Of a stretch of DNA of 64,000 bases, positions 1-58,715 are shown piece after piece (within the stretch, counting starts at the first letter, position 1; each line of letters begins with the position of its first letter). The stretch is from Shimia aestuarii (lineage in GTDB: Bacteria; Pseudomonadota; Alphaproteobacteria; Rhodobacterales; Rhodobacteraceae), in NCBI RefSeq assembly GCF_022814865.1, contig NZ_JAKVRD010000007.1, positions 62,001-126,000 of the forward strand. Direction: 5' to 3'. The translations under genes were made by a program, and so were the position numbers. The notes under the pieces are model-generated. The model did no database searches. It was given only the letters and a program-made list of their open reading frames with translations, and was not told where the DNA came from.

Positions 1-285
1 GAACAAGAAGGCTGGACGCATGAACATGACGACCAGCACACAGACGAAACCCTTGCCCTCGTCGCTGCGCTCTACGCGGCGCCGTTCCCACTGCTTACAG
101 AGGAAGTCGAACAACACGATGACGGCCGGTCATACTTTGCCTTCATGGACCCTTGGCCAGCGAGCTGGGACAGTAGCTGGGATAGGAGAAGCGATCACAG
201 CCGCCGGCGCCAGCTTGTGATCGCAGGGGCGCTGATCGCGGCGGAAATTGATCGCCTGGACCGTGAGGGGGCGAGAAATGCCTGA
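1..285 (+). CDS. Phage-type hypothetical protein (5' truncated)
   Basis: An open frame runs from base 1 to a TGA at 283-285, giving 94 visible residues; the start lies outside the window. The C-terminal part contains DPWP, then a run rich in W, R and D, then AGALIAAEIDRLDRE. I recognise this pattern from small uncharacterised phage and prophage proteins encoded next to integrase modules; no function is known to me. Its last codons overlap the start of the next gene (ATG at 278), which indicates translational coupling in one operon. It belongs to the integrated element that ends at the tRNA-Leu gene. Confidence 0.6.
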   Translation, partial: EQEGWTHEHDDQHTDETLALVAALYAAPFPLLTEEVEQHDDGRSYFAFMDPWPASWDSSWDRRSDHSRRRQLVIAGALIAAEIDRLDREGARNA

Positions 286-1182: not shown

Positions 1183-2141
1183 TCCAGCCGCCGCGCCAGA
1201 TCCTCCGCGCTCTCGTTGTAATAGACCTGCAGCATGGCGATGTTTCGATGCCCTACCGCCCGCGCAAGAGCCAGAACATCCAGCTTTCGAGAGAGCCTTG
1301 TAATCGCGGCATGACGAGAGTCGTGAAACGTCAGACCATCGACCCCTGCTTTTCCCTTCACCTTCCGAAATAGCGCATCGAGCTGCTGAGAGGTCAGATC
1401 AAAGATCGGATCCGCATCAGGCAGATCCCGCAATAGTCGCACCGCTTCAGATGACAGAGGAACCTCCCGCGCAATCCCGCTCTTGGTCTTCTCGAGCCGC
1501 GCAACGCGCCGCGCTAGGTCAACCCTGCCCCATTCCAACCCGACGATCTCGCCCGCCCGCATAGCTGTCTCACAGGCAAACAAGAACGCGTGAAACGCTC
1601 GCGCCGTTGCATTGGTGAGATCCTTTCCCGCGACATGACTCATTCGCTCGAGCTCGTCATCGGTCGGCAGCCGATCCCTCGGAGGTGGTGATGCCGGCTT
1701 CCTGACATCGGCCATAGGATTGACCTGCATCAGCCCCCACTCCTTACGGGCCTGAGTGAGAACGGCCGCGATCAGCACCATTTCACGCCGCACGGTCCCT
1801 GAGGAGACCTCCTGAAGCCGTCGATCGCGCCAAGCGGCGAAGTCCTTTGGCGCCAGGTCGCCGAGCCGGATCCGTGCGATCGGATCGCGCTGGAGCTTCT
1901 CGAGGCGGATCACTTCCCACCTGTGCCCGCGCTTGCCTGGAGACGCTTCCCGCGCGTATCGGTCCATCAGCTCGCCAAAGGTGAGTGCGGCCGCATATTT
2001 ATCCCCGTTCAGGATCTTATACTCTTCCCGCGCAGCCCAATCCTTTGCTTCTTGCTTGCTGGCAAATACCTTCGATCTGCGAATCCCCTTTCGCTCGATC
2101 AGCGCGCGCCATCCTTTGTTGTGTCTGATAATCGACGCCAT
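1179..2141 (-). CDS. int: Tyrosine recombinase / phage-type integrase
   Basis: A 320-residue site-specific recombinase. The N-terminal part has an arm-binding-like region (SIIRHNKGWRALIERKG) and a core-binding SAM-like domain. The catalytic domain shows the expected residues: Arg in AMRAGE (about 195), Lys in EKTKSG, His and Arg in FHDSRH (273 and 276), His in VGHRN (298) and Tyr in VYYN (307/308), so it looks active. The start was set at MASII because AGGTGAGGG lies just upstream (2144-2152); a frame to 2216 exists but has no such site. The gene points away from tRNA-Leu, whose 3' end is the likely attachment site. Confidence 0.9.
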   Translation of the reverse strand: MASIIRHNKGWRALIERKGIRRSKVFASKQEAKDWAAREEYKILNGDKYAAALTFGELMDRYAREASPGKRGHRWEVIRLEKLQRDPIARIRLGDLAPKDFAAWRDRRLQEVSSGTVRREMVLIAAVLTQARKEWGLMQVNPMADVRKPASPPPRDRLPTDDELERMSHVAGKDLTNATARAFHAFLFACETAMRAGEIVGLEWGRVDLARRVARLEKTKSGIAREVPLSSEAVRLLRDLPDADPIFDLTSQQLDALFRKVKGKAGVDGLTFHDSRHAAITRLSRKLDVLALARAVGHRNIAMLQVYYNESAEDLARRLD

Positions 2142-2176
2142 ATCCCTCACCTGTGCGTGATCCGTGAGGGATATGG
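2138..2176. promoter_or_regulatory. 13-bp perfect inverted repeat over integrase start
   Basis: CCATATCCCTCAC at 2138-2150 is repeated in inverted orientation as GTGAGGGATATGG at 2164-2176 with a 13-base spacer. The left arm contains the integrase start codon and its ribosome binding site. It could be an operator or an mRNA hairpin that hides the start; which one cannot be told from sequence. Confidence 0.6.
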
Positions 2177-2281
2177 TGCGTGAATTTGGGAGCGGTTTGC
2201 AATCAACCATTCCCAAAAGCGTATATTTTTCTCAAGTGTGGGAAAATTTGGGAGGCAGTTAGTCCCGCCTATTCTCAGTGG

Positions 2282-2330
2282 TGGTGCCCAAGGTGGGACT
2301 CGAACCCACACGATGTTGCCATCGGGGGAT
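2282..2330. other. Probable attachment site (att) of the integrated element
   Basis: The 3' half of tRNA-Leu is the likely core of the attachment site because a tyrosine integrase gene starts 141 bases from it and element-type genes lie on that side only. The second copy of the repeat would be at the far left end of the element, outside this window, so the exact core cannot be defined here. Confidence 0.4.
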
Positions 2331-2367
2331 TTTGAATCCCCTGCGTCTACCATTCCGCCACTTGGGC
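2282..2367 (-). tRNA. tRNA-Leu (anticodon CAA)
   Basis: The minus strand folds as a class II tRNA: acceptor stem GCCCAAG pairing with CUUGGGC, anticodon stem GGGGA/UCCCC with loop UUCAAAA (anticodon CAA), a long variable arm, and TPsiC loop GUUCGAGUC. The discriminator A and an encoded CCA are at 2282-2285. The integrase gene lies beyond its 3' end, the usual arrangement of tRNA-targeted elements. Confidence 0.95.
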
Positions 2368-2428
2368 CTTGTCCCTGATCTAGCCGGGAGCGCGCGGAGG
2401 GTCCAGCCCCAAAAAGCGCCGGACCCTA

Positions 2429-3781
2429 TCAAAACATAATCTGTACGAGCCAGAGCGTGATTGGCGGAAACGCGACGAGCAAAAGCACCCGCACAAGGTC
2501 AGAGGCGATGAACGGTGCGACGCCGGCATAGGTCCGCGTGATCGGGATATCGGGCGCCACGCCGTTGATGATAAAAAGATTCATCCCCACGGGCGGCGTG
2601 ATGAGCCCGACCTCCACCACGATCAGCGCCAGCACCCCGAACCAGATCGCGGTTTCCTCAGGCGTCAGCCCGAAATCAAGCACCTCAATCACCGGCAGGA
2701 AGATCGGCACCGACAAGAGGATCATCGACAGCGAATCCATGACACAGCCAAAGACGAGATAGGCCAGAAGCATCACCGCAAGCACAATGAGCGGCGACAG
2801 ATCGGCAAGCTGCACCCAATCGGCCAGCAATGCGGGCGCGCGCGTCAGGGCAAGAAAACCTTTGAAAAGCTCCGCCCCAAGCAGGATCAGAAAGATCATC
2901 GCCGTGGCCTTGGCCGTCTCGAGGATCGACTCCCAAAGACCCGCCCAAGACAGGCGACGCCCGATCACCCCATAAAGCGTTGTCGCCACCGCCCCAAAGG
3001 CCGCGGCCTCATTCGGGGTAAAGAGGGCCTGTGCGCCGGGTTTGACCCAGTTCCAATCGCCGACGATCCCGCCCATGGTCAGGCCAAAGATCGCCAGAAC
3101 CGGCCATGTGGCGGCCAGCGTCTTGAGCCGCGCCTTCATCGGAACGGAGGGCGCGGTATCCGCCGATCCGGGCCGCAACCTGACATAGAGTGCCACCGTA
3201 ATCATATAGCCAAGCGCCGCGAGAAGACCTGGAATGAGCGCCGCCATGAACATCTTGACGATGTTCTGCTCGGCCATGATCGCATAGATGACAAGGATGA
3301 CACTCGGCGGGATCAGGATACCAAGCGTGCCGCCCGCCGCGAGAACCCCGCTAGAAAGCGCATCGGAATAGCCGCGCTTGCGCATTTCCGGCAGCGCCAC
3401 CTGCCCCATCGTCGAGGCCGTGGCCAAAGACGAGCCACAGATCGCGCCGAACCCCGCGCAGGCCCCGACCGAGGCCATCGCCACACCGCCACGCAGATGG
3501 CCAAGCCAATCGCTCGCCGCACGAAACAGGGCCGAGGACATGCCTGTCCGCGTCGCCACCTGCCCCATGAGGAGGAAGAGCGGCACGATGGAGAGGCCTT
3601 GGTTGGAGAAAGTTTCGTAGCTCATGGTCTTGAGCTGGGCCATCGGCGCATTGGCCGTACCCATAATAAACCACGTACCAAAGAACCCGGTCATCGCCAT
3701 GGCAATGGCAATCGGCACCCTGAGGAAAATGCCAAGAAGCATGAGGCCAAAGGCCGAAAGAGCCAACTCAATCCCGGTCAT
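2429..3781 (-). CDS. dctM: TRAP transporter large permease (DctM family)
   Basis: A 450-residue, very hydrophobic protein of the DctM subunit family, which forms the ion-coupled channel of tripartite ATP-independent periplasmic transporters in the inner membrane. Family signatures include VPLFLLMGQVATRTGMS, GGVAMASVGACAGFGAICGS and GTLGILIPPSVILVIYA. The start at 3781 overlaps the dctQ stop by ATGA. It is the last gene of the operon monooxygenase-dctQ-dctM. No DctP-type binding protein is encoded in the window next to it, so the substrate and the cognate receptor are unknown. An imperfectly looped inverted repeat (2398-2404 with 2421-2427) follows the stop. Confidence 0.92.
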   Translation of the reverse strand: MTGIELALSAFGLMLLGIFLRVPIAIAMAMTGFFGTWFIMGTANAPMAQLKTMSYETFSNQGLSIVPLFLLMGQVATRTGMSSALFRAASDWLGHLRGGVAMASVGACAGFGAICGSSLATASTMGQVALPEMRKRGYSDALSSGVLAAGGTLGILIPPSVILVIYAIMAEQNIVKMFMAALIPGLLAALGYMITVALYVRLRPGSADTAPSVPMKARLKTLAATWPVLAIFGLTMGGIVGDWNWVKPGAQALFTPNEAAAFGAVATTLYGVIGRRLSWAGLWESILETAKATAMIFLILLGAELFKGFLALTRAPALLADWVQLADLSPLIVLAVMLLAYLVFGCVMDSLSMILLSVPIFLPVIEVLDFGLTPEETAIWFGVLALIVVEVGLITPPVGMNLFIINGVAPDIPITRTYAGVAPFIASDLVRVLLLVAFPPITLWLVQIMF

Positions 3782-4362
3782 ACCGCATCCTCTCGGCCCG
3801 TGGCGCACCAGTTGAGGCTCCGCCAGACCGTATAAAGCGAGACCAGCGCGAAGAGCGTCGCCCCCAGAAGCGCAAAGCCATAAGGAATCCAGACCGGGAT
3901 TTCCAATTCATAGGTGGTTTCAGGGTAGAACGGCTTATAGCCCATGGAAAGCGCCTCGCGCAGCGCATCGCTGCCATAGGGGAATTTCTCGGCAAAACCG
4001 AACCAGAGCTGGCGCAGGATCACCAGTGCCGCGAGCGTGATCAGAACATCCCCAAGCAGCCCCATCAACGCCCGCGCCCGCGCCGGGAAATGATCAGTGA
4101 GGATGTCGACCGTGACGTGGCCGCGTTTAAGTTGGCAATAGGGAAGAAAGGAAAACACCGCCAGCGCACAGCCATTGGCGACAAGTTCGTAGTCCCCCGG
4201 CACCGGCTGAAGACCATAGCCAACCCCGGCCCGCCCGATGATCGACACCACGGTCATGGCCGAGATCGCAAGCAGGACCAAGCCGCCGCCATAGGCCATG
4301 ACCCTTGCAAGCATATCAATGACGCGGCCCATGCGTTTCTCAAGACGGGGGGCGAAATACAT
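3778..4362 (-). CDS. dctQ: TRAP transporter small permease (DctQ family)
   Basis: A 194-residue protein with four hydrophobic segments (roughly residues 20-45, 65-80, 100-120 and 155-180), matching the DctQ small membrane subunit of TRAP transporters. QLKRGHVTVDIL is the conserved loop motif of the family. The start lies one base after the monooxygenase stop and its own stop overlaps the dctM start, so the three genes are co-translated. It partners DctM in the inner membrane. Confidence 0.88.
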   Translation of the reverse strand: MYFAPRLEKRMGRVIDMLARVMAYGGGLVLLAISAMTVVSIIGRAGVGYGLQPVPGDYELVANGCALAVFSFLPYCQLKRGHVTVDILTDHFPARARALMGLLGDVLITLAALVILRQLWFGFAEKFPYGSDALREALSMGYKPFYPETTYELEIPVWIPYGFALLGATLFALVSLYTVWRSLNWCATGREDAV

Positions 4363-4363
4363 A

Positions 4364-5617
4364 TCAGGGCTCCAGAAGCGGACCGCGCGCGTTCAGCGCG
4401 GCAATATCCATGCCTGCGATCTTCTTGTATCCGGATGCAAGCTCTTGCCGTTCGGAAAGCGGCATCACGGTTTCAATATCGTCAAACCCGTCCGGCGCGC
4501 GCGCCTCCACGATGTCGAGAACCTTGTCCGGACCGTCGCCGCGATTGCGCAGGACGAGCGCATTGACCGTCTCGCGGCGCGCCTCCTCATAGGATTTGAG
4601 CGCCGCTTGCGTGGCCCCATGCGCCTTGATCTCGCGGGCCAGGATGCGCGCATCGATGATCCCCTGGCTCGCCCCATTCGAGCCGATCGGATACATCGCA
4701 TGCGCCGCATCCCCGAGAAGCGTCAGCGGTCCAAAGCTCCATTGCGGCAGCGGGTTGCGATCCACCATCGGGAATTCATAGATCGCCTCGGCATCGCGGA
4801 TGATTTGCGGCACGTCGAGCCAGTCAAAGGTCCAATCCTCGAACGCCGGCAGAAAATCCTCGAGCTTACCGGGGCGATTCCAGTCCTGTTTGCGCCAATC
4901 GTAATCCTCGGGCATGGTCAGATCCGCGATCCAGTTCAACAGGCTGCCGCCGTCTTCTGTATCGCCGATTGGATAGATGACGAACTTGCACCGTTTCACG
5001 CCCGCCATCGCCATCGACCGTCCCGTCAGGAACCGCGGCCCCTTGGTCACGCCGCGCCACATCATCGTGCCGCCCCAATGGGCCGGACCCTCGTCCGGAT
5101 ATTGCCCGGCGCGTAGGACCGAGTTAATCCCATCTGCCGCGATAAGAAGGCTCCCCTCCTCTGCGCCAAGCGCCGTCCCGGTCTTGCGATCTTCGAGACT
5201 GACCAACACGCCGGTCTCCGTTTCCTGCCATCCCGTGACCGCATGGCCCATCTTCACCACGTCGGCCCCGCAGCGTTCGATCAACGTCTCCAGAAGGAGC
5301 ATCTGCAAACCGCCGCGATGGATCGAGAACTGTGGCCAATGATAGCCCGCATCCATACCGCGCGGCTCGGACCAGATCAGTTTGCCCTGACGCGAGAAAT
5401 AAGCGACCTCTTCGGTGCGCAGCCCCACCTTATCGAGCCCATCCTCAAGCCCCATCTCGATCAATTCGCGCGTCGCATGCGGTTGCAGGTTGATACCGAC
5501 GCCAAGCGGCTTGATCTCGCGCACCGCCTCGTAAATCCGGAACGGCACACCGATCTGGTGCAAGGAAAGGCCAAGGCTCAGACCGGCAATCCCGGCGCCT
5601 GCAATCAATACGGTCAT
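4364..5617 (-). CDS. FAD-dependent monooxygenase (PhzS / aromatic hydroxylase type)
   Basis: A 417-residue class A flavoprotein monooxygenase. The N-terminus MTVLIAGAGIAGLSLGLSL is the FAD-binding Rossmann fingerprint, and GDAAHAMYPIGSNGASQGI is the second FAD motif in the form found in PhzS and salicylate-hydroxylase relatives. Such enzymes hydroxylate aromatic or heteroaromatic acids using NAD(P)H and O2. The ATG at 5617 was preferred to a GTG nine codons upstream because the fingerprint begins there. It is the first gene of an operon with a TRAP permease, so it probably acts on the imported compound; the substrate is unknown. Confidence 0.82.
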   Translation of the reverse strand: MTVLIAGAGIAGLSLGLSLHQIGVPFRIYEAVREIKPLGVGINLQPHATRELIEMGLEDGLDKVGLRTEEVAYFSRQGKLIWSEPRGMDAGYHWPQFSIHRGGLQMLLLETLIERCGADVVKMGHAVTGWQETETGVLVSLEDRKTGTALGAEEGSLLIAADGINSVLRAGQYPDEGPAHWGGTMMWRGVTKGPRFLTGRSMAMAGVKRCKFVIYPIGDTEDGGSLLNWIADLTMPEDYDWRKQDWNRPGKLEDFLPAFEDWTFDWLDVPQIIRDAEAIYEFPMVDRNPLPQWSFGPLTLLGDAAHAMYPIGSNGASQGIIDARILAREIKAHGATQAALKSYEEARRETVNALVLRNRGDGPDKVLDIVEARAPDGFDDIETVMPLSERQELASGYKKIAGMDIAALNARGPLLEP

Positions 5618-51569: not shown

Positions 51570-52571
51570 ATGCTCTACGCTGCCGCCATTCTCGGAACCG
51601 CCTTTCTTGGCTGGGGTCTCATCGAATTGCTTGGTGAAGACGATGACTCCGCGCCTGAAACCGTGGTCGAAGAACAAGAGTACGATACCGTCACCAAAGG
51701 CGACGCTGAAGACAACGACCTGACCGGCAGCACAGGCAATGACCTCCTGATCGGCAAGGGCGGCGACGACACGCTCACCGGCGGCGATGGCAACGACGAC
51801 CTGCGTGGATGGGCCGGGTTCGATACCCTCTTTGGTGGCGACGGCATGGATACGCTCGATGGCGGCTCTGCCGACGATAGCCTCCGAGGCGGCGATGGCG
51901 ATGACCTCCTGATCGGCGGCACCGGCGACGACCATCTCGAAGGCGGCGCCCAGAATGACCAGATGGCAGGCGGCGATGGCACCGATACGCTTTTTGGCGA
52001 ACGCGGCGATGACTCGCTGCTCGGCAATGCAGGCGATGATAGCCTAATCGGTGGCAATGGCGCGGATGCTCTGGCTGGCGGCAGCGGAGAGGACGTCCTT
52101 CTTGGTGGTGACGGCAATGACGTGCTCCTCGGGACCGATCCTTTCGCCCACGAGCTGACCTTCGATGACCTGGCACAGATCTCCCCCGACGCCTCCGCCC
52201 TCGCCGGTCTCTCCGCCGATGTCAGCGAAGACACAAGCGGCCCTGACACGCTTTATGGCGAAGCCGGAGATGATTGGCTGGTGTTCGGCGCGGGCGATCA
52301 GGTCTGGGGCGGCGACGGCGAAGATCTCTTCACCCTCTTTAATGACCAAACCGACGGCAGCGCCCCGGCATCTATCGTCGATTTCAACAACGGGTCGGAC
52401 GCGGAACAGATTGCCGTGATCTACAAAGGTGGCACCACACCCCCTGCCGTCACTGCCGAAAAGATCGGCGACGACACCCATGTTTCGCTGGATGGGGTCA
52501 AAGCACTGATCGTCGAGGATGAGGACGTGGCGACCGTTCTGGCCGCCATCGTCCTTGTCGAAAGCGCTTAA
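51570..52571 (+). CDS. RTX (hemolysin-type Ca-binding) repeat protein with N-terminal anchor
   Basis: A 333-residue protein. It starts with a hydrophobic segment (residues 2-21), a likely signal-anchor, then an acidic stretch, then about 15 tandem RTX nonapeptides (GGxGxDxLx) from about residue 52 to 185. A second short group (YGEAGDDWLVFGAGDQVWGGDG) follows near residue 230, then a C-terminal domain resembling the caps of RTX proteins. No protease, lipase or type I secretion gene is adjacent. It is the sole RTX protein here; the function is unknown. Convergent stops overlap with the hydratase gene (TTAA). Confidence 0.8.
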   Translation: MLYAAAILGTAFLGWGLIELLGEDDDSAPETVVEEQEYDTVTKGDAEDNDLTGSTGNDLLIGKGGDDTLTGGDGNDDLRGWAGFDTLFGGDGMDTLDGGSADDSLRGGDGDDLLIGGTGDDHLEGGAQNDQMAGGDGTDTLFGERGDDSLLGNAGDDSLIGGNGADALAGGSGEDVLLGGDGNDVLLGTDPFAHELTFDDLAQISPDASALAGLSADVSEDTSGPDTLYGEAGDDWLVFGAGDQVWGGDGEDLFTLFNDQTDGSAPASIVDFNNGSDAEQIAVIYKGGTTPPAVTAEKIGDDTHVSLDGVKALIVEDEDVATVLAAIVLVESA

Positions 52572-53418: not shown

Positions 53419-53871
53419 TCATTCCTCGAGAATTTCTTTCAACCGCGCCTGTTCCTCGGCATCAAGCCCTTCTTCCGCCGTCTTCGGCGCGCTCTGGCGT
53501 CGGCGCAGGTAAAGCGCCGCCGTGCCAAGCGCGAGGAGGAGCATCACCGGCCCCGCAAGGTAGAGCACAAGGTTCGTCCCCCCTGCGCGCGGCTTGAGAA
53601 GGACATACTCACCATAGCGCGAAACGATGAAATCCACCGCCTCCTCATCCGTGTCCCCGGCGACAAGCCGTTCCCGCACCAAAAGCCGCAGGTCACGCGC
53701 CAGTTCGGCATTGGAATCGTCGATGCTCTCGTTGCGACACACAAGACAACGCAGGTCTTTCGACAGATCCCGCGCCCGTTCCTCGAGCACCGGATCATCA
53801 AGGATTTCGTCAGGCTGCACCGCCCAAACCGGCGCCGCGATCAGGGCAAGGATGACCAGAAGACGTTTCAT
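53419..53871 (-). CDS. ccmH: Cytochrome c maturation protein CcmH (thiol reductase)
   Basis: A 150-residue protein with a signal peptide (residues 1-17), the redox motif LRCLVC (Cys42, Cys45), and a C-terminal membrane segment (about 105-125). It reduces apocytochrome thiols for haem attachment. The ATG overlaps the ccmF stop (ATGA). It ends the ccmE-(lysis)-ccmF-ccmH group. Confidence 0.92.
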   Translation of the reverse strand: MKRLLVILALIAAPVWAVQPDEILDDPVLEERARDLSKDLRCLVCRNESIDDSNAELARDLRLLVRERLVAGDTDEEAVDFIVSRYGEYVLLKPRAGGTNLVLYLAGPVMLLLALGTAALYLRRRQSAPKTAEEGLDAEEQARLKEILEE

Positions 53872-55844
53872 TCCGCAGGCACTCCCGCACTCGGCACCGA
53901 TTTGCGCGCCCCTGCGGCGACGCGATAGCGCCGGTCGCTGAGGCTGAAGACACCGCCAATCGCCATCATCAAACACCCTAGCCAGATCCAGTTGGTCAGC
54001 GGCTTGATGTAAATCCGCATGGCCCAACCGCCATCATTCTGCGGATCGCCAATCACCACATAGACATCGCGCAGGAACCGGTAGTCGATCGAGGCCTCTG
54101 TGGTCGGCATCGACTGCACCGGATAGGCGCGTTTCTCAGGATGTAGCGTCGCGACGAAATTGCCATCGCGGCGCACGGTCACGTCGCCCATGGTCGAGAT
54201 ATAGTTTGGCCCCTGCACGCGCTCGACGCTGTTGAGCGTGAACTCATAGGCGCCCACTGTCCACGGCTCGCCCGTCTGCACAACGCGGATATCTTCCTGC
54301 TCCCACGCCATCAGACCGGCAATCCCGACCATCGTCACGCCAAGCCCGGCATGGGCCACCGCCTTGCCCCAATCCGCGCGCGGCAGGCGTTTGAGACGAC
54401 CAAGACGCTGACCGAACGCGCCGCGCCCGGTGCGGCTAAAGATATCGACCATCGCACCGACAACGATCCACGTCCCAAGGAAGACCCCGACCGGACCAAG
54501 AAGCGACTTTTCGCTCTGCACCGACCACGCGAGCCCGGCCAATGCAAACGCCAGCAAGAGCGCCGGCAGGAGCGGACGCGCCGCGCGCAGCACATTGGCC
54601 CGCTTCCAAGGCAGCATCGCACCCACCGGCAGAAGCACCCCGAGCAAGACCATGAACGGCGTGAACGCCATATTGAAGAACGGCGCCCCAACCGAGAGCT
54701 TGCGGGTAAAGAAGATCTCCGACACCAGCGGCCAGATCGTGCCGATAAACACCACGAAACAGGCCACCGCGAGAAGAATGTTGTTCATCACGAGAACGCT
54801 TTCGCGACTCACGATGCTAAAGACGCCCTTGGCCTCCATGGCGCTTGCCCGCGCGGCGAAAAGCATAAGCGCCCCGCCCATGAAGATCGCAAGAATCGCA
54901 AGGATAAACACCCCGCGCTCCGGGTCATTGGCAAAGGCATGCACCGAGGTGATGACGCCCGAGCGCACGATGAACGTCCCAATGAGGGAGAATCCAAAGG
55001 CCAGAATGGCAAGCAGGATGGTCCAGCTTTTCAACGCCTCGCGCTTCTCGACCACGATGGCCGAATGCAAGAGCGCCGCCGCAAGAAGCCACGGCATGAA
55101 CGAGGCATTCTCGACCGGATCCCAGAACCAGAACCCGCCCCAGCCAAGCTCGTAATAGGCCCACCAAGACCCAAGCGCGATACCAATGGTGAGGAACACC
55201 CATGCCGCCAGCGTCCAAGGCCGCACCCACCGCGCCCATGCCGCATCGACACGGCCCTCGATCAAGGCTGCCACAGCAAAGCTGAACGCCATCGAAAGGC
55301 CCACATACCCGAGATAGAGAAACGGCGGATGGAAGGCGAGACCGGGGTCTTGCAAAAGCGGGTTGAGCCCGTTGCCATCAAACGGCGGCACGCCTTCGCG
55401 AAGGAACGGGTTCGAGGTAAAGAGGATAAAGGCGTAGAAGGCCACCGACACAAGCGACTGCACCGCAAGCGCCCGCGCCCGCAGGCTTGGCGGCAAGTTG
55501 TTTCCAAACCACGCCAGCGTCGCCCCGAACAGCGTCAGGATCAACACCCAAAGGAGCATCGACCCCTCGTGGTTGCCCCAGACGCCCGAAATCTTATAGA
55601 GCATCGGCTTCATCGAATGCGAGTTGTTCGTCACCAGCGTCACCGAGAAATCAGAGACCACGAAGGCATAGGTCAACGCGCAAAACGAGAAGGCGGTGAG
55701 AAGGAACTGAATGCCCGCCGCCGGTTCAGCAACCGCCATCCAGGCGGGCCAGCGTTTATGAGCACCAATGAGCGGAACCACCGCCTGCACCACGGCGGTG
55801 AGGGCGGCGAGTATAAGGGCGAAGTGGCCGAGTTCTACTATCAT
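53868..55844 (-). CDS. ccmF: Cytochrome c haem lyase subunit CcmF
   Basis: A 658-residue polytopic haem lyase. WGNHEGSMLLWV and the Trp-rich GSWWAYYELGWGGFWFWDPV (WWD domain) are family hallmarks. It attaches haem to cytochrome c in the periplasm with CcmH. The ATG at 55844 gives MIVELGHFALILA. A perfect CRP-type site (55892-55909) lies 48 bases upstream, so it may have its own regulated promoter apart from ccmE. Confidence 0.95.
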   Translation of the reverse strand: MIVELGHFALILAALTAVVQAVVPLIGAHKRWPAWMAVAEPAAGIQFLLTAFSFCALTYAFVVSDFSVTLVTNNSHSMKPMLYKISGVWGNHEGSMLLWVLILTLFGATLAWFGNNLPPSLRARALAVQSLVSVAFYAFILFTSNPFLREGVPPFDGNGLNPLLQDPGLAFHPPFLYLGYVGLSMAFSFAVAALIEGRVDAAWARWVRPWTLAAWVFLTIGIALGSWWAYYELGWGGFWFWDPVENASFMPWLLAAALLHSAIVVEKREALKSWTILLAILAFGFSLIGTFIVRSGVITSVHAFANDPERGVFILAILAIFMGGALMLFAARASAMEAKGVFSIVSRESVLVMNNILLAVACFVVFIGTIWPLVSEIFFTRKLSVGAPFFNMAFTPFMVLLGVLLPVGAMLPWKRANVLRAARPLLPALLLAFALAGLAWSVQSEKSLLGPVGVFLGTWIVVGAMVDIFSRTGRGAFGQRLGRLKRLPRADWGKAVAHAGLGVTMVGIAGLMAWEQEDIRVVQTGEPWTVGAYEFTLNSVERVQGPNYISTMGDVTVRRDGNFVATLHPEKRAYPVQSMPTTEASIDYRFLRDVYVVIGDPQNDGGWAMRIYIKPLTNWIWLGCLMMAIGGVFSLSDRRYRVAAGARKSVPSAGVPAE

Positions 55845-55891
55845 GCCCTGCGTTATAAGTCGCACGCGTCCGGTGGCCAATGCATTTCGCG

Positions 55892-55909
55892 ATGTGAATG
55901 CGATCACAT
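55892..55909. promoter_or_regulatory. Perfect CRP-type binding site before ccmF
   Basis: ATGTGA-ATGCGA-TCACAT matches the CRP consensus TGTGA-N6-TCACA with both arms intact. It lies between the holin stop (55928) and ccmF start (55844). It differs from the FNR pattern (TTGAT-N4-ATCAA). Confidence 0.65.
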
Positions 55910-55927
55910 TGTCGCGGGGGCGGCGCT

Positions 55928-56488
55928 TTATCGCAGGTCGCCCGCATCAGGCAGCGCGGCTTTGCGCGCCTCTGCCCGCCACGCCCCGAGCGCCGGGTTT
56001 TGCACATCCACAACGCTGTCCTCGCCGCCCTGCCGCAGCGTATCAATCGCGCCCTTGACTTGTGGCACACGTGTCAAAGTTTCCGCGATAGATCGTTGAA
56101 ATTCCTGCCCTTTCGCTTGATGCCGCGCGCCGAAATAGAAGCTCACGATGACACCGAGAAGCCACCACAGGGGCTCCGGCACAAGCGCCAGCCCCGCCAT
56201 GCGTGCCGAGAACCAAACCGGGTCGATCATCGCAACGATGACAAGGCCAATACAGCCAAGCGCCATGACCGGGCGCGGCAGGCGATTGAGCCCATCCATG
56301 ATCCTGTCGAACGCGCCGCGCCGTGTGGCGCGAAACTCCGCCCCCTGTGCCGCCAGCGCCGCAAGCTGCACCTCCTTGGCCCGCGCCGCGCCGGCTTCGG
56401 CGTTCTCGCGAAACACCTCGACCGTCTCGCGCACCGCGTTGCGCCCGTCGCCGAAGATCATTGTGAAAATCCGCGCGATTAACCCCAT
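55928..56488 (-). CDS. Holin of the GTA 3TM type
   Basis: A 186-residue protein beginning MGLIARIFTMIFGDGRNAVR, an amphipathic region with a conserved family pattern (GTA_holin_3TM), then a hydrophobic part: about residues 70-90 and 105-125. A charged C-terminal tail follows. Such holins let the neighbouring endolysin cross the inner membrane to release gene transfer agent particles. Its start overlaps the endolysin stop by 10 bases. It is located between ccmE and ccmF, not with phage structural genes. Confidence 0.8.
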   Translation of the reverse strand: MGLIARIFTMIFGDGRNAVRETVEVFRENAEAGAARAKEVQLAALAAQGAEFRATRRGAFDRIMDGLNRLPRPVMALGCIGLVIVAMIDPVWFSARMAGLALVPEPLWWLLGVIVSFYFGARHQAKGQEFQRSIAETLTRVPQVKGAIDTLRQGGEDSVVDVQNPALGAWRAEARKAALPDAGDLR

Positions 56489-57090
56489 GCCGCCACCCTT
56501 TCCTGAAACGCCGCTTCGCTTAGGCGATAGCGCGGCTGCATGAAGGCTTCGGCCCGCGTGATCCATCCGCCCTTCCCGCCATCCCGGCGGCGCGCGTATT
56601 TGCGGCTCGCCGGGCGGCGGTCGGCCAAGGCGAAATAGTAATTGCGCCGCGCAATCGCATAGGCATCGCCAAGATGATCCGGCGCGGCCCTGTCGGCCTC
56701 CGCCGCGGCCTGCACCGTCTCGCCCCCGATCACCCCATCAACCGTCACCGACCAACCCATCTCGCAAAGGAGCCTTTGCAGAATACGCACCGCCTGCCCG
56801 CCCGCGTTGACATACATGTCAAAAACCGACGCACGAAGGCTCTCTGGCAGGCCCTCTATGCCGGGACGGCGATAGTAGTGTTCAAGGAAAATCTCGACCG
56901 CCTGCACCTCGCTCACGCGCCGCACGTCCTGCGCATCCACATCGCCATCCCCGTCGAGATCGAGCCCCAAACGACGCATCGTGTGCACTGTCACGCCATG
57001 TTTCGTCGCCCCGCCCGGATCGTCCAGGTCATTCACATAGCCCCCTTCTCGCGCCACGATCTCGCGCGCAATCGCTGCCACATCCTGCAT
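56479..57090 (-). CDS. Holin-associated N-acetylmuramidase (GH108 endolysin, GTA type)
   Basis: A 203-residue peptidoglycan hydrolase. The catalytic Glu is Glu15 in REGGYVNDLDDPGGATKHGV, the glycoside hydrolase 108 signature; an EF-hand-like DLDGDGDVDAQDV loop lies in the middle; a C-terminal peptidoglycan-binding part includes DGVIGGETVQAA. In Rhodobacter capsulatus a holin/endolysin pair like this, unlinked to the main GTA cluster, releases GTA particles. A 15-bp repeat upstream duplicates its start region. A terminator after ccmE separates it from that gene. Confidence 0.82.
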   Translation of the reverse strand: MQDVAAIAREIVAREGGYVNDLDDPGGATKHGVTVHTMRRLGLDLDGDGDVDAQDVRRVSEVQAVEIFLEHYYRRPGIEGLPESLRASVFDMYVNAGGQAVRILQRLLCEMGWSVTVDGVIGGETVQAAAEADRAAPDHLGDAYAIARRNYYFALADRRPASRKYARRRDGGKGGWITRAEAFMQPRYRLSEAAFQERVAAWG

Positions 57091-57124
57091 GATCGACCTC
57101 TATGCGTTGCCTGCATGATCGACC
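57084..57124 (-). repeat. 15-bp direct repeat duplicating the endolysin start region
   Basis: CCTGCATGATCGACC occurs at 57084-57098 and 57110-57124, period 26. The first contains the endolysin ATG (57088-57090); the second contains another ATG out of frame, opening a 27-residue decoy frame ending at 57033. Confidence 0.75.
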
Positions 57125-57168
57125 CTGCCGCGCCCGGGTTAACCGCGCCTCACACCACCGCACGGCCC

Positions 57169-57204
57169 AAACGCAAACGGCCCGCAGCATCTGCCACGGG
57201 CCGT
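57169..57204 (-). terminator. Terminator after ccmE
   Basis: On the minus strand ACGGCCCG pairs with CGGGCCGT (57177-57184 with 57197-57204), followed by TTTGCGTTT. It lies about 22 bases after the ccmE stop. Confidence 0.65.
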
Positions 57205-57226
57205 CCTTTTACACTGGTGCTCGGGA

Positions 57227-57670
57227 TCAGGAACCGGGTTCCTGATAAACCCCCTGCTCCTTGAGCGCATCCACCACTTCCTTAGGCATATAGGTCTCGT
57301 CATGCTTGGCGAGGATTTCCTCGGCCTCAAACACGCCATTGATATACCGCCCGGTGCCGATCATGCCTTGGTTTTCGTCAAACAGGTCCGGCAACACGCC
57401 AGTGAACACGACCGGGATCGACGCCCCGCCATCCGTCACCACGAAATGGATCGTCTCGCCCTGCCCGCGCTTGAGAGAACCTTCCTCGACAAGCCCGCCA
57501 ATCCGGAAAACCTCGTTCGGCGGCGGCGGCGCATCGGCCACCTCGCTGGGGCTGCGGAAGAAGTTGATCCCGTCCTTGAAGGCAAACCCGATCAACCCCG
57601 TCGACACCGCGAGCGCCACGAAGGCCAGCACGATGATCTGGATGCGCCGTCTCTTCTTGAGGTTCTTCAT
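57227..57670 (-). CDS. ccmE: Cytochrome c maturation haem chaperone CcmE
   Basis: A 147-residue periplasmic haem carrier with an N-terminal membrane anchor (about residues 9-30) and a beta-barrel domain. The covalent haem-binding His is His123 and Tyr127 follows in AKHDETYMP. The ATG at 57670 lies 16 bases after argC, so the two are probably co-transcribed. Its partners ccmF and ccmH lie beyond the lysis genes. Confidence 0.93.
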   Translation of the reverse strand: MKNLKKRRRIQIIVLAFVALAVSTGLIGFAFKDGINFFRSPSEVADAPPPPNEVFRIGGLVEEGSLKRGQGETIHFVVTDGGASIPVVFTGVLPDLFDENQGMIGTGRYINGVFEAEEILAKHDETYMPKEVVDALKEQGVYQEPGS

Positions 57671-57686
57671 TCTCTCATTCTCCGTA

Positions 57687-58715
57687 TCAGGGGAACACCG
57701 GCGCGAGCATAAGCCCCGCGGTCTCCTCTTCCCCAAGCATCAGGTTGGCGTTCTGAATCGCCTGCCCGCTGGACCCCTTGGTCAGGTTGTCGAGCACCGC
57801 CACAACGATGGTGCGGCCCTCAATCCGGTCGCCCACAACGCCGATATGGCAGAAGTTGGACGCCCGCACATGTTTCACATTCGGCGTCTCGCCAAGCGGC
57901 AAGACCTCGATGAACGGCTCCGCCTCATAGGCCCGCGCAAGCGTCGCGTGAACCGTCTCGGCATCCCCGTGCACATAGGCCGTCGCAAGAATCCCCCGGT
58001 TCGCCGGAAGAAGATGCGGCGTGAACTGAATCCGCACCTCGCGCCCTGCAACCGCGCTGAACTCCTGATCGAACTCGCCAAGGTGACGGTGCTTCCCGCC
58101 TACGGCATAGGCGTTGTAGCCTTCGCTCAGCTCGGCATGCAGCAGGTTTTCCTTCAACGACCGACCTGCACCAGAGACTGCGCATTTCAGGTCGAGAATG
58201 ATATGATCAAAGTCAATCACACCCTCGGCAATAAGCGGGCGCAGCACGAACTGCCCCGTCGCTGCGTTACAGCCGGTTCCGGCGACAAGCCGCGCCGATT
58301 TGATCTCATCGCGGTAGAACTCGGTCAGGCCATAGACCGCTTCTTTTTGCAACTCGACCGCATCATGTTCTCCGCCATACCACTTGGCGTATTCTTCCGG
58401 GTCGCGGAGACGGAAATCCGCCGAGAGATCGACCACTTTGACGGCCTCTGGCAGCGCCTTGATGACCTTCTGGCTCGTCGCATGCGGCAAGGCACAGAAA
58501 CACAGGTCCACTCCGTCAAAGTCGATTTCATCGATTTTACAAAGCGTTGGAAGCTCAAGATGACGTAGATGCGGGAACACTTCGGCCATCTCCATCCCGG
58601 CCTTACGATCCGCCGAAAGCGCGACGATCTCCATGCTGGGATGGGTTGCAATAAGGCGGACAAGCTCGGCTCCGGTATAGCCGCTGGCCCCGAGGATGGC
58701 GATTTTATGGGTCAT
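57687..58715 (-). CDS. argC: N-acetyl-gamma-glutamyl-phosphate reductase
   Basis: A 342-residue arginine biosynthesis enzyme. [16 protein letters not shown] is the NADP site; the catalytic Cys is in AGTGCNAATG, differing from the common GCYPTA motif but keeping the Cys; [10 protein letters not shown] carries the His. It precedes ccmE with a 16-base gap. The divergence at the motif is in a conserved position and could be a family subtype. Confidence 0.9.

Follow-up and report, generated by a model that had tools for sequence, protein, structure and literature searches.

A gene transfer agent-type lysis cassette retained between ccmE and ccmF in a Shimia aestuarii genome that has lost the particle genes

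The closest described counterparts of the locus considered here belong to RcGTA, the gene transfer agent (GTA) of Rhodobacter capsulatus: the lysis genes rcc00555/rcc00556 and the head-tail cluster rcc01682-rcc01698. According to the parts of the published accounts available to us, the R. capsulatus lysis promoter is bound by GafA and induction of the endolysin needs CtrA (PMC6363796), and the lysis promoter region contains putative CtrA half-sites (PMC9638019). The present study concerns an endolysin-holin pair lying among the cytochrome c maturation (ccm) genes of Shimia aestuarii (Rhodobacteraceae), within a window of 64,000 nucleotides (assembly GCF_022814865.1, contig NZ_JAKVRD010000007.1, positions 62,001 to 126,000); coordinates are those of the window unless stated otherwise, and the features located by them around the cassette are on the minus strand. 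The cassette itself is of a known kind and occupies its customary position. What is unusual is its orphan state, its persistence together with the gafA family in genera that have no complete GTA, and the recurrence of one exact terminase::megatron chimera where the particle genes used to be. In the texts, partly accessible, that a literature search returned, nothing was recognisable as a report of the ccm location of the lysis pair or of this chimera.

The original prediction, made from the sequence alone, placed argC, ccmE, endolysin, holin, ccmF and ccmH in that order, with the lysis genes overlapping by 10 bases and splitting ccmE from ccmF, and open reading frames together with profile searches bear this out. 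The endolysin gene (56479..57090) encodes an N-acetylmuramidase of 203 residues that matches PF05838 (GH108), PF09374 (PG_binding_3) and the endolysin family phrog_315, and scores 347.6 bits against NCBIfam NF040573, 'holin-associated N-acetylmuramidase' (cut-off 240); its relatives in the PDB include chains 2NR7 and 7DNP. Directly downstream, the holin gene (55928..56488, 186 residues) matches GTA_holin_3TM (PF11351), the family by which an RcGTA-type lysis cassette is recognised, with 103.1 bits against a cut-off of 24.8. The overlap covers 56479-56488, exactly 10 bases, and is identical in all 25 species of the genus. The flanking genes are argC (57687..58715; TIGR01850, 373.7 bits), ccmE (57227..57670; PF03100; the start is inferred from the translation, the listed reading frame opening at 57736), ccmF (53868..55844; PF16327 and PF01578) and ccmH (53419..53871; PF03918, 166.1 bits). 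A PHROGs scan limited to the ten proteins around the cassette found no phage structural family, in keeping with the prediction that none lies nearby: eight of them, the holin included, had no match at all, the endolysin matched one endolysin family and one family of unknown function, and an enoyl-CoA hydratase gave a single marginal match to a protease family.

The placement of the pair was surveyed in 100 genomes representing 100 genera of the family, 86 of which contain the holin family. Flanks of up to 5 kb on each side were taken for 91 other holin loci above the cut-off, from 85 genera, and searched for the genes of the window; second, below-cut-off holin places in G010 and G042 were left out (genomes are given by working labels, G000 being the present one). 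At the best locus of each of the 85 genera, the holin has both ccmE and ccmF in its vicinity in 51 genera, ccmE alone in 18, ccmF alone in 12 and neither gene in 4. With the present genome included, both genes are close by in 52 of 86 genera, a lower bound because some stretches stop at contig ends, and at least one of them in 82 of 86. In 85 of the 86 holin-positive genera the holin is accompanied by a neighbouring endolysin match; G040 has none at the score used. Within the genus the six-gene order is present in 25 of 25 species, with 127-151 bases preceding the endolysin. The ccmE-ccmF interval is the usual place of the lysis pair in the family, and since the same gene order recurs across it the arrangement is more than chance; a fresh insertion into the ccm locus was rejected on the same ground. 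The original prediction had thought it unexpected to find a lethal function between two genes needed for respiration, and had proposed a comparison of gene order across the Rhodobacteraceae. That comparison reveals a shared order at a site with its own regulatory signals, which speaks against the placement being a surprise.

Among the 14 genera without the holin family a ccmF match was found in 13, and 12 of these loci were read. In six of them ccmE directly precedes ccmF (G094, G029, G045, G014, G059 and G090), in three the two genes are separated by about 0.9 to 2.5 kb of other sequence (G048, G083 and G017), and in three no ccmE lies within the stretch read (G004, G054 and G019). G094 has GTA genes and an empty ccmE-ccmF site; G048 has GTA genes too, and its roughly 1 kb of intervening sequence perhaps holds a different lysis pair. 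Within the genus, the gap between holin and ccmF is 57-87 bases and in G122 it measures 582 bases and, on visual inspection, appears to contain an additional short reading frame.

The genome is 99.99% complete, in a draft of 70 contigs, and contains no match to the portal family PF04860 or the HK97 capsid family PF05065. Only the last third of GTA_TIM (PF13547) is matched, inside a single open frame (contig C7, 173192-175774) in which the N-terminus of terminase is followed in-frame by the C-terminus of the megatron (gp15). This chimera, whose terminase part shows Walker A and B motifs by eye, lies 47 kb beyond the end of the window, in a contig of 201,602 bases, where relatives have their GTA cluster and with the usual neighbours on both sides. 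Set against the intact cluster of a relative, the locus retains terminase residues 16-185, megatron residues 646-1304, the small gene behind and a serine-acetyltransferase-like gene (neighbours named by eye); terminase from residue 186, everything between, and the megatron up to residue 645 have no match there. The genome therefore lacks the set of terminase, portal, capsid and tail genes taken to mark a functional GTA, terminase and megatron being present only as the chimera. The original prediction had read the pair as the unlinked lysis genes of a GTA whose main cluster should be sought elsewhere in the genome. The pair does belong to GTA lysis families and is separate from head-tail genes, the GTA remnant lying about 54 kb away on the same contig, but the cluster itself proves to be a deletion chimera. 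Such an absence had been named beforehand as telling against the prediction; what falls with it is a genome that makes GTA, and the identity of the cassette as GTA-type stands.

In 22 of the 25 species of the genus terminase and megatron matches are separate genes, with about 12 kb between them on a single contig in 21 species and on two contigs in G119, the genes between them not having been inspected in all species; the loss is accordingly placed on this genome's own branch. The exceptions are this genome, G104 and G122. In G104 terminase is matched at full length and the N-terminus of the portal is fused to the C-terminus of the megatron in a frame of 552 residues; in G122 broken pieces remain. 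All three keep a full-length lysis pair and an open gafA-family frame (PF20057), which in the present genome is 372 residues long.

The association between lysis genes and GTA was examined across the family by classing the 100 genera by hand, with G028 (86% complete, unclear) dropped and the fragmented genomes with partial matches G021 (no capsid match), G061 and G069 counted as GTA-bearing. The holin is present in 70 and absent from 7 of the genera with a GTA, and present in 15 and absent from 7 of those in which the GTA is absent or incomplete (Fisher p = 0.013, taken as a guide). The 15 are the present genome, G003, G013, G018, G030, G032, G036, G043, G055, G070, G071, G076, G079, G092 and G095; inspection of the GTA locus in some of them showed that part of the cluster survives in G036 and G071, that tail genes are left in G003, and that the cluster of G013 is damaged. 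Fourteen of the 15 have an endolysin of full length, and the copy in G095 ends at a contig end. PF20057 is matched in all 15, compared with one of the seven GTA-less genera without a holin (p = 9e-5, likewise a guide), of which G033 is only 74% complete. Both the lysis pair and a member of the gafA family are retained in genera whose GTA is absent or incomplete.

Candidate regulatory signals lie in the intervals on both sides of the cassette. A putative CtrA half-site of the lysis promoter, TTAACC (57137..57142), is suggested by the enrichment of TTAAC, the half-site given in the literature, between ccmE and the endolysin gene: 19 of the 25 species of the genus have it, compared with 1.4 expected from shuffles, as do 41 of the 68 gaps taken from other genera, for which 2.5 are expected. 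The genus alignment also points to a possible activator site, the CGTGCGGTGG element (57155..57164); NCGGTGG is found in 8 of 25 gaps within the genus (0.5 expected) but in none of 68 from other genera. Behind ccmE stands a terminator-like hairpin with a weak T tail (57177..57204), which folds strongly (-42.7 over the first 80 bases). Hairpins with a T tail at this point pass a terminator test in 20 of 25 species of the genus, against 1.6 expected, their arms varying between species; a stricter first version, before longer loops were allowed, gave 15 of 25 (0.9 expected), both counts being judged against mononucleotide shuffles. Family-wide insulation by a terminator was rejected, since only 5 of 68 gaps of other genera pass the stricter version, and the hairpin is a feature of this genus. 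Upstream of ccmF, a pattern drawn from the genus alignment predicts a promoter (55852..55880) composed of TTGGCC at 55880-55875, a 17-base spacer and TATAAC at 55857-55852. The pattern, TTGG(C/A)-16..19-TA(T/C), recurs outside the genus in 34 of the 51 gaps examined, where mononucleotide shuffles predict 0.3; a general sigma-70 scan found no promoter. Judged by these patterns, the cassette is apparently controlled by a switch of its own, and ccmF appears to be read from a separate promoter. In the same alignment a conserved ACAATGTGATC-like element stands upstream of the ccmF promoter (55895-55915). Elsewhere in the window, at 51570-52571, a predicted protein with RTX-like glycine-aspartate repeats, noted by eye, adjoins a putative citrate synthase gene.

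The explanation we favour, with a probability of about 0.72, is that an RcGTA-type lysis cassette was inherited at a fixed ccmE/ccmF site, is now an orphan, and most likely still serves as an inducible lysis switch independent of any GTA. Its starting points are observations: the identity of the genes, their place and conservation, the lack of particle genes, and the presence of a gafA-family gene beside the pair. Inducibility, lytic action, insulation and benefit are what we infer from them. The holin would open the inner membrane and the GH108 endolysin would cut peptidoglycan. Expression of the cassette would start at a separate promoter between ccmE and the endolysin gene, one that GafA together with CtrA switches on in R. 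capsulatus, and ccmF would be transcribed from a promoter of its own; given two separate promoters, sharing the ccm locus would be harmless unless the regulon fires. Deletion of the particle genes in this species would have left the chimera, with the gafA-family gene and the lysis pair intact, and the switch would have been kept either by selection, with the lysis of a small number of cells setting free nutrients or DNA, or because too little time has passed since the loss.

The branch ratio of nonsynonymous to synonymous rates (dN/dS) for the holin is 0.15 in this lineage and 0.13 in the nearest relative, G112; for the chimera the values are 0.12 and 0.09 and cover the megatron part alone, since stops in the alignment made the terminase part unusable. 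Relative to six reference genes on a fixed tree, branch lengths for endolysin and holin are 1.67 and 1.39 in the present genome, 0.69 and 0.70 in G122, and 2.21 and 2.72 in G104, the other species of the genus ranging from 0.21 to 4.19 and from 0.27 to 3.22, respectively. In a neutral simulation (1000 runs, point hits only) the two genes of the pair often remain open at 0.05 hits per site, in 0.60 and 0.69 of runs; at 0.3 hits per site an open endolysin is left in 8% of runs and an open chimera in 0%. Constraint seems to have held for most of the lineage's own branch.

Several observations weigh against a retained, insulated switch. The hairpin behind ccmE in this genome fails the terminator test, apparently through its weak T tail. 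The dN/dS of the endolysin is 0.23 here compared with 0.09 in G112, which could be mild relaxation, and the two further congeners without a GTA disagree, G122 being slow and G104 fast. PF20057 is a family mark of gafA, so orthology is assumed; its match in G003 is interrupted by a stop, and in G013 and G055 it lies in short frames (256 and 300, respectively). The genera share ancestry, which makes the p-values guides, and their GTA classes were set by hand; seven genera have GTA genes and no holin family, so that the link between holin and GTA is not absolute. Lastly, GTA loss may be young, having occurred on this genome's own branch, and late loss accounts for the constraint as well as retained function does.

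The last point leads to the possibility that the pair is a recently orphaned remnant, without a present role and not yet decayed because the particle genes were lost only lately. The separate terminase and megatron of 22 congeners and the open frames left by the simulation at 0.05 hits per site are in its favour. We nevertheless hold it to be unlikely, for 14 of the 15 holin-bearing genera whose GTA is absent or incomplete have an endolysin of full length, G043 has both the chimera and a full-length lysis pair, and some chimeras look old, as with seven from Ruegeria at 72-87% identity (from a protein list, open frames only). That the pair instead helps another resident phage or phage-like element is suggested by the other portals and capsids carried by some GTA-less relatives (G092); the lack of matches to portal and HK97 capsid families in this genome makes such a use improbable, as does the finding that all 29 records of a phage collection with a relative of the endolysin fall below 60% identity to it.

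With 70 contigs, the draft might be suspected of hiding an unassembled GTA cluster. This is very improbable, because the chimera is embedded in its long contig between the usual neighbours and the same junction occurs in the single-contig genome G055 (frameshifted there) and in the three-contig genome G128. Least credible of all is a prophage relic with lysis genes as its sole survivors. GH108 endolysins do occur in phages, but the pair occupies the same place in 82 of 86 genera and has conserved signals of its own, and phage structural genes, to which the original prediction had looked as the mark of a relic, are missing from the ten neighbouring proteins scanned.

GTA loss recurs through one exact chimera. 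At a strict E-value, and among the matches listed, a single match spanning the terminase and megatron parts occurs in at least 12 of 295 family genomes, broken copies being under-counted; all 12 are open frames with the same junction codon, and further chimeras are present in G055 and in G032, where the copy ends at a contig end. Among the best 120 of 3335 public relatives, ranked by likeness to a chimera and hence in a way that favours chimeras, 116 are chimeras by domains and length; 115 of these 116 fit a loose junction pattern, and a stricter one fits 82 of the 120. Named sources comprise seven Ruegeria entries, Sulfitobacter, Roseovarius, Tateyamaria and Roseivivax, and the database names include 'phage tail protein', 'Terminase-like family protein' and 'megatron'. 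Roseovarius pacificus is a named species with both the chimera and the lysis pair, the latter in strain DSM 29589. In a megatron tree, for which intact genera were drawn only from the best-scoring matches, the present chimera is placed with other sequences of its genus, G043, G070 and the pair G092/G161 stand among intact sequences, and the remaining eight chimeras group together with one intact sequence among them; the pairs G092/G161 and G079/G240 are well supported. A single ancestral chimera clade is unsupported for the present chimera, since it nests in its own genus, and inheritance may explain part of the distribution. Ten windows around the present junction were compared for signs of a donor tract: in 7 the closest sequence is that of a native relative, and other chimeras come slightly closer over the first 30 and 60 bases upstream and over bases 150-300 upstream. 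A direct repeat as the cause of the junction found no support: in the four scorable clusters of five tried (G102 was dropped, its megatron site being unmatched), 1246 to 4723 of 4728 to 5145 diagonals score higher, under ungapped scoring of present-day relatives. One predicted model of the chimera has a mean predicted local distance difference test (pLDDT) value of 76, with the megatron domains confident and residues 132-173, from the junction onwards, and 203-241 below 50; a new folded unit at the junction is unsupported by this model.

It is tempting to go further. Redfield and Soucy, in the part of their text available, hold that small capsid capacity prevents the selfish spread of intact clusters (PMC6209664), and RcGTA DNA is given as about 4 kb in the portion consulted of another report (PMC9638019). 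A short deletion allele would, in our view, escape this bar. We therefore suggest, tentatively and at less than even odds, that many roseobacters keep a 'post-GTA' regulon made up of GafA, the ccm lysis pair and the terminase::megatron chimera. The chimera would be either selected as a new protein or a 2.6 kb deletion allele that fits a particle of about 4 kb, as the intact cluster does not, and that spreads by homologous recombination, perhaps carried by GTAs, switching off GTA production in its recipients.

A separate switch, together with a neighbour that has its own promoter, may explain how a lethal module is tolerated within an essential locus. The results indicate that GTA lysis control can outlive the particle, and if the pair is under selection without a GTA, regulated self-lysis would be valuable in itself, which bears on why GTA production survives its cost. 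The recurring chimera provides a testable route of GTA loss, and its varied database names mean that surveys based on a single gene can miscount GTAs.

Compared with known systems, the cassette resembles rcc00555/rcc00556 of R. capsulatus in being an endolysin and holin away from the head-tail cluster with a putative CtrA half-site in the promoter region, and the kinship rests on shared families; unlike in that setting, the head-tail cluster here is gone. Of the RcGTA cluster, the chimera aligns to megatron residues 609-1302 (PDB 6TBA), which correspond to the end of the peripheral domain and the central and fibre-binding domains, as named in the part consulted of PMC7296036. The present locus differs from that cluster in everything from terminase residue 186 through megatron residue 645, which is unmatched by comparison with an intact relative. 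The alphaproteobacterial order ccmE-ccmF-ccmH, also known as cycJ-cycK-cycL, is kept in six relatives without lysis genes; in the greater part of the family the lysis pair interrupts it.

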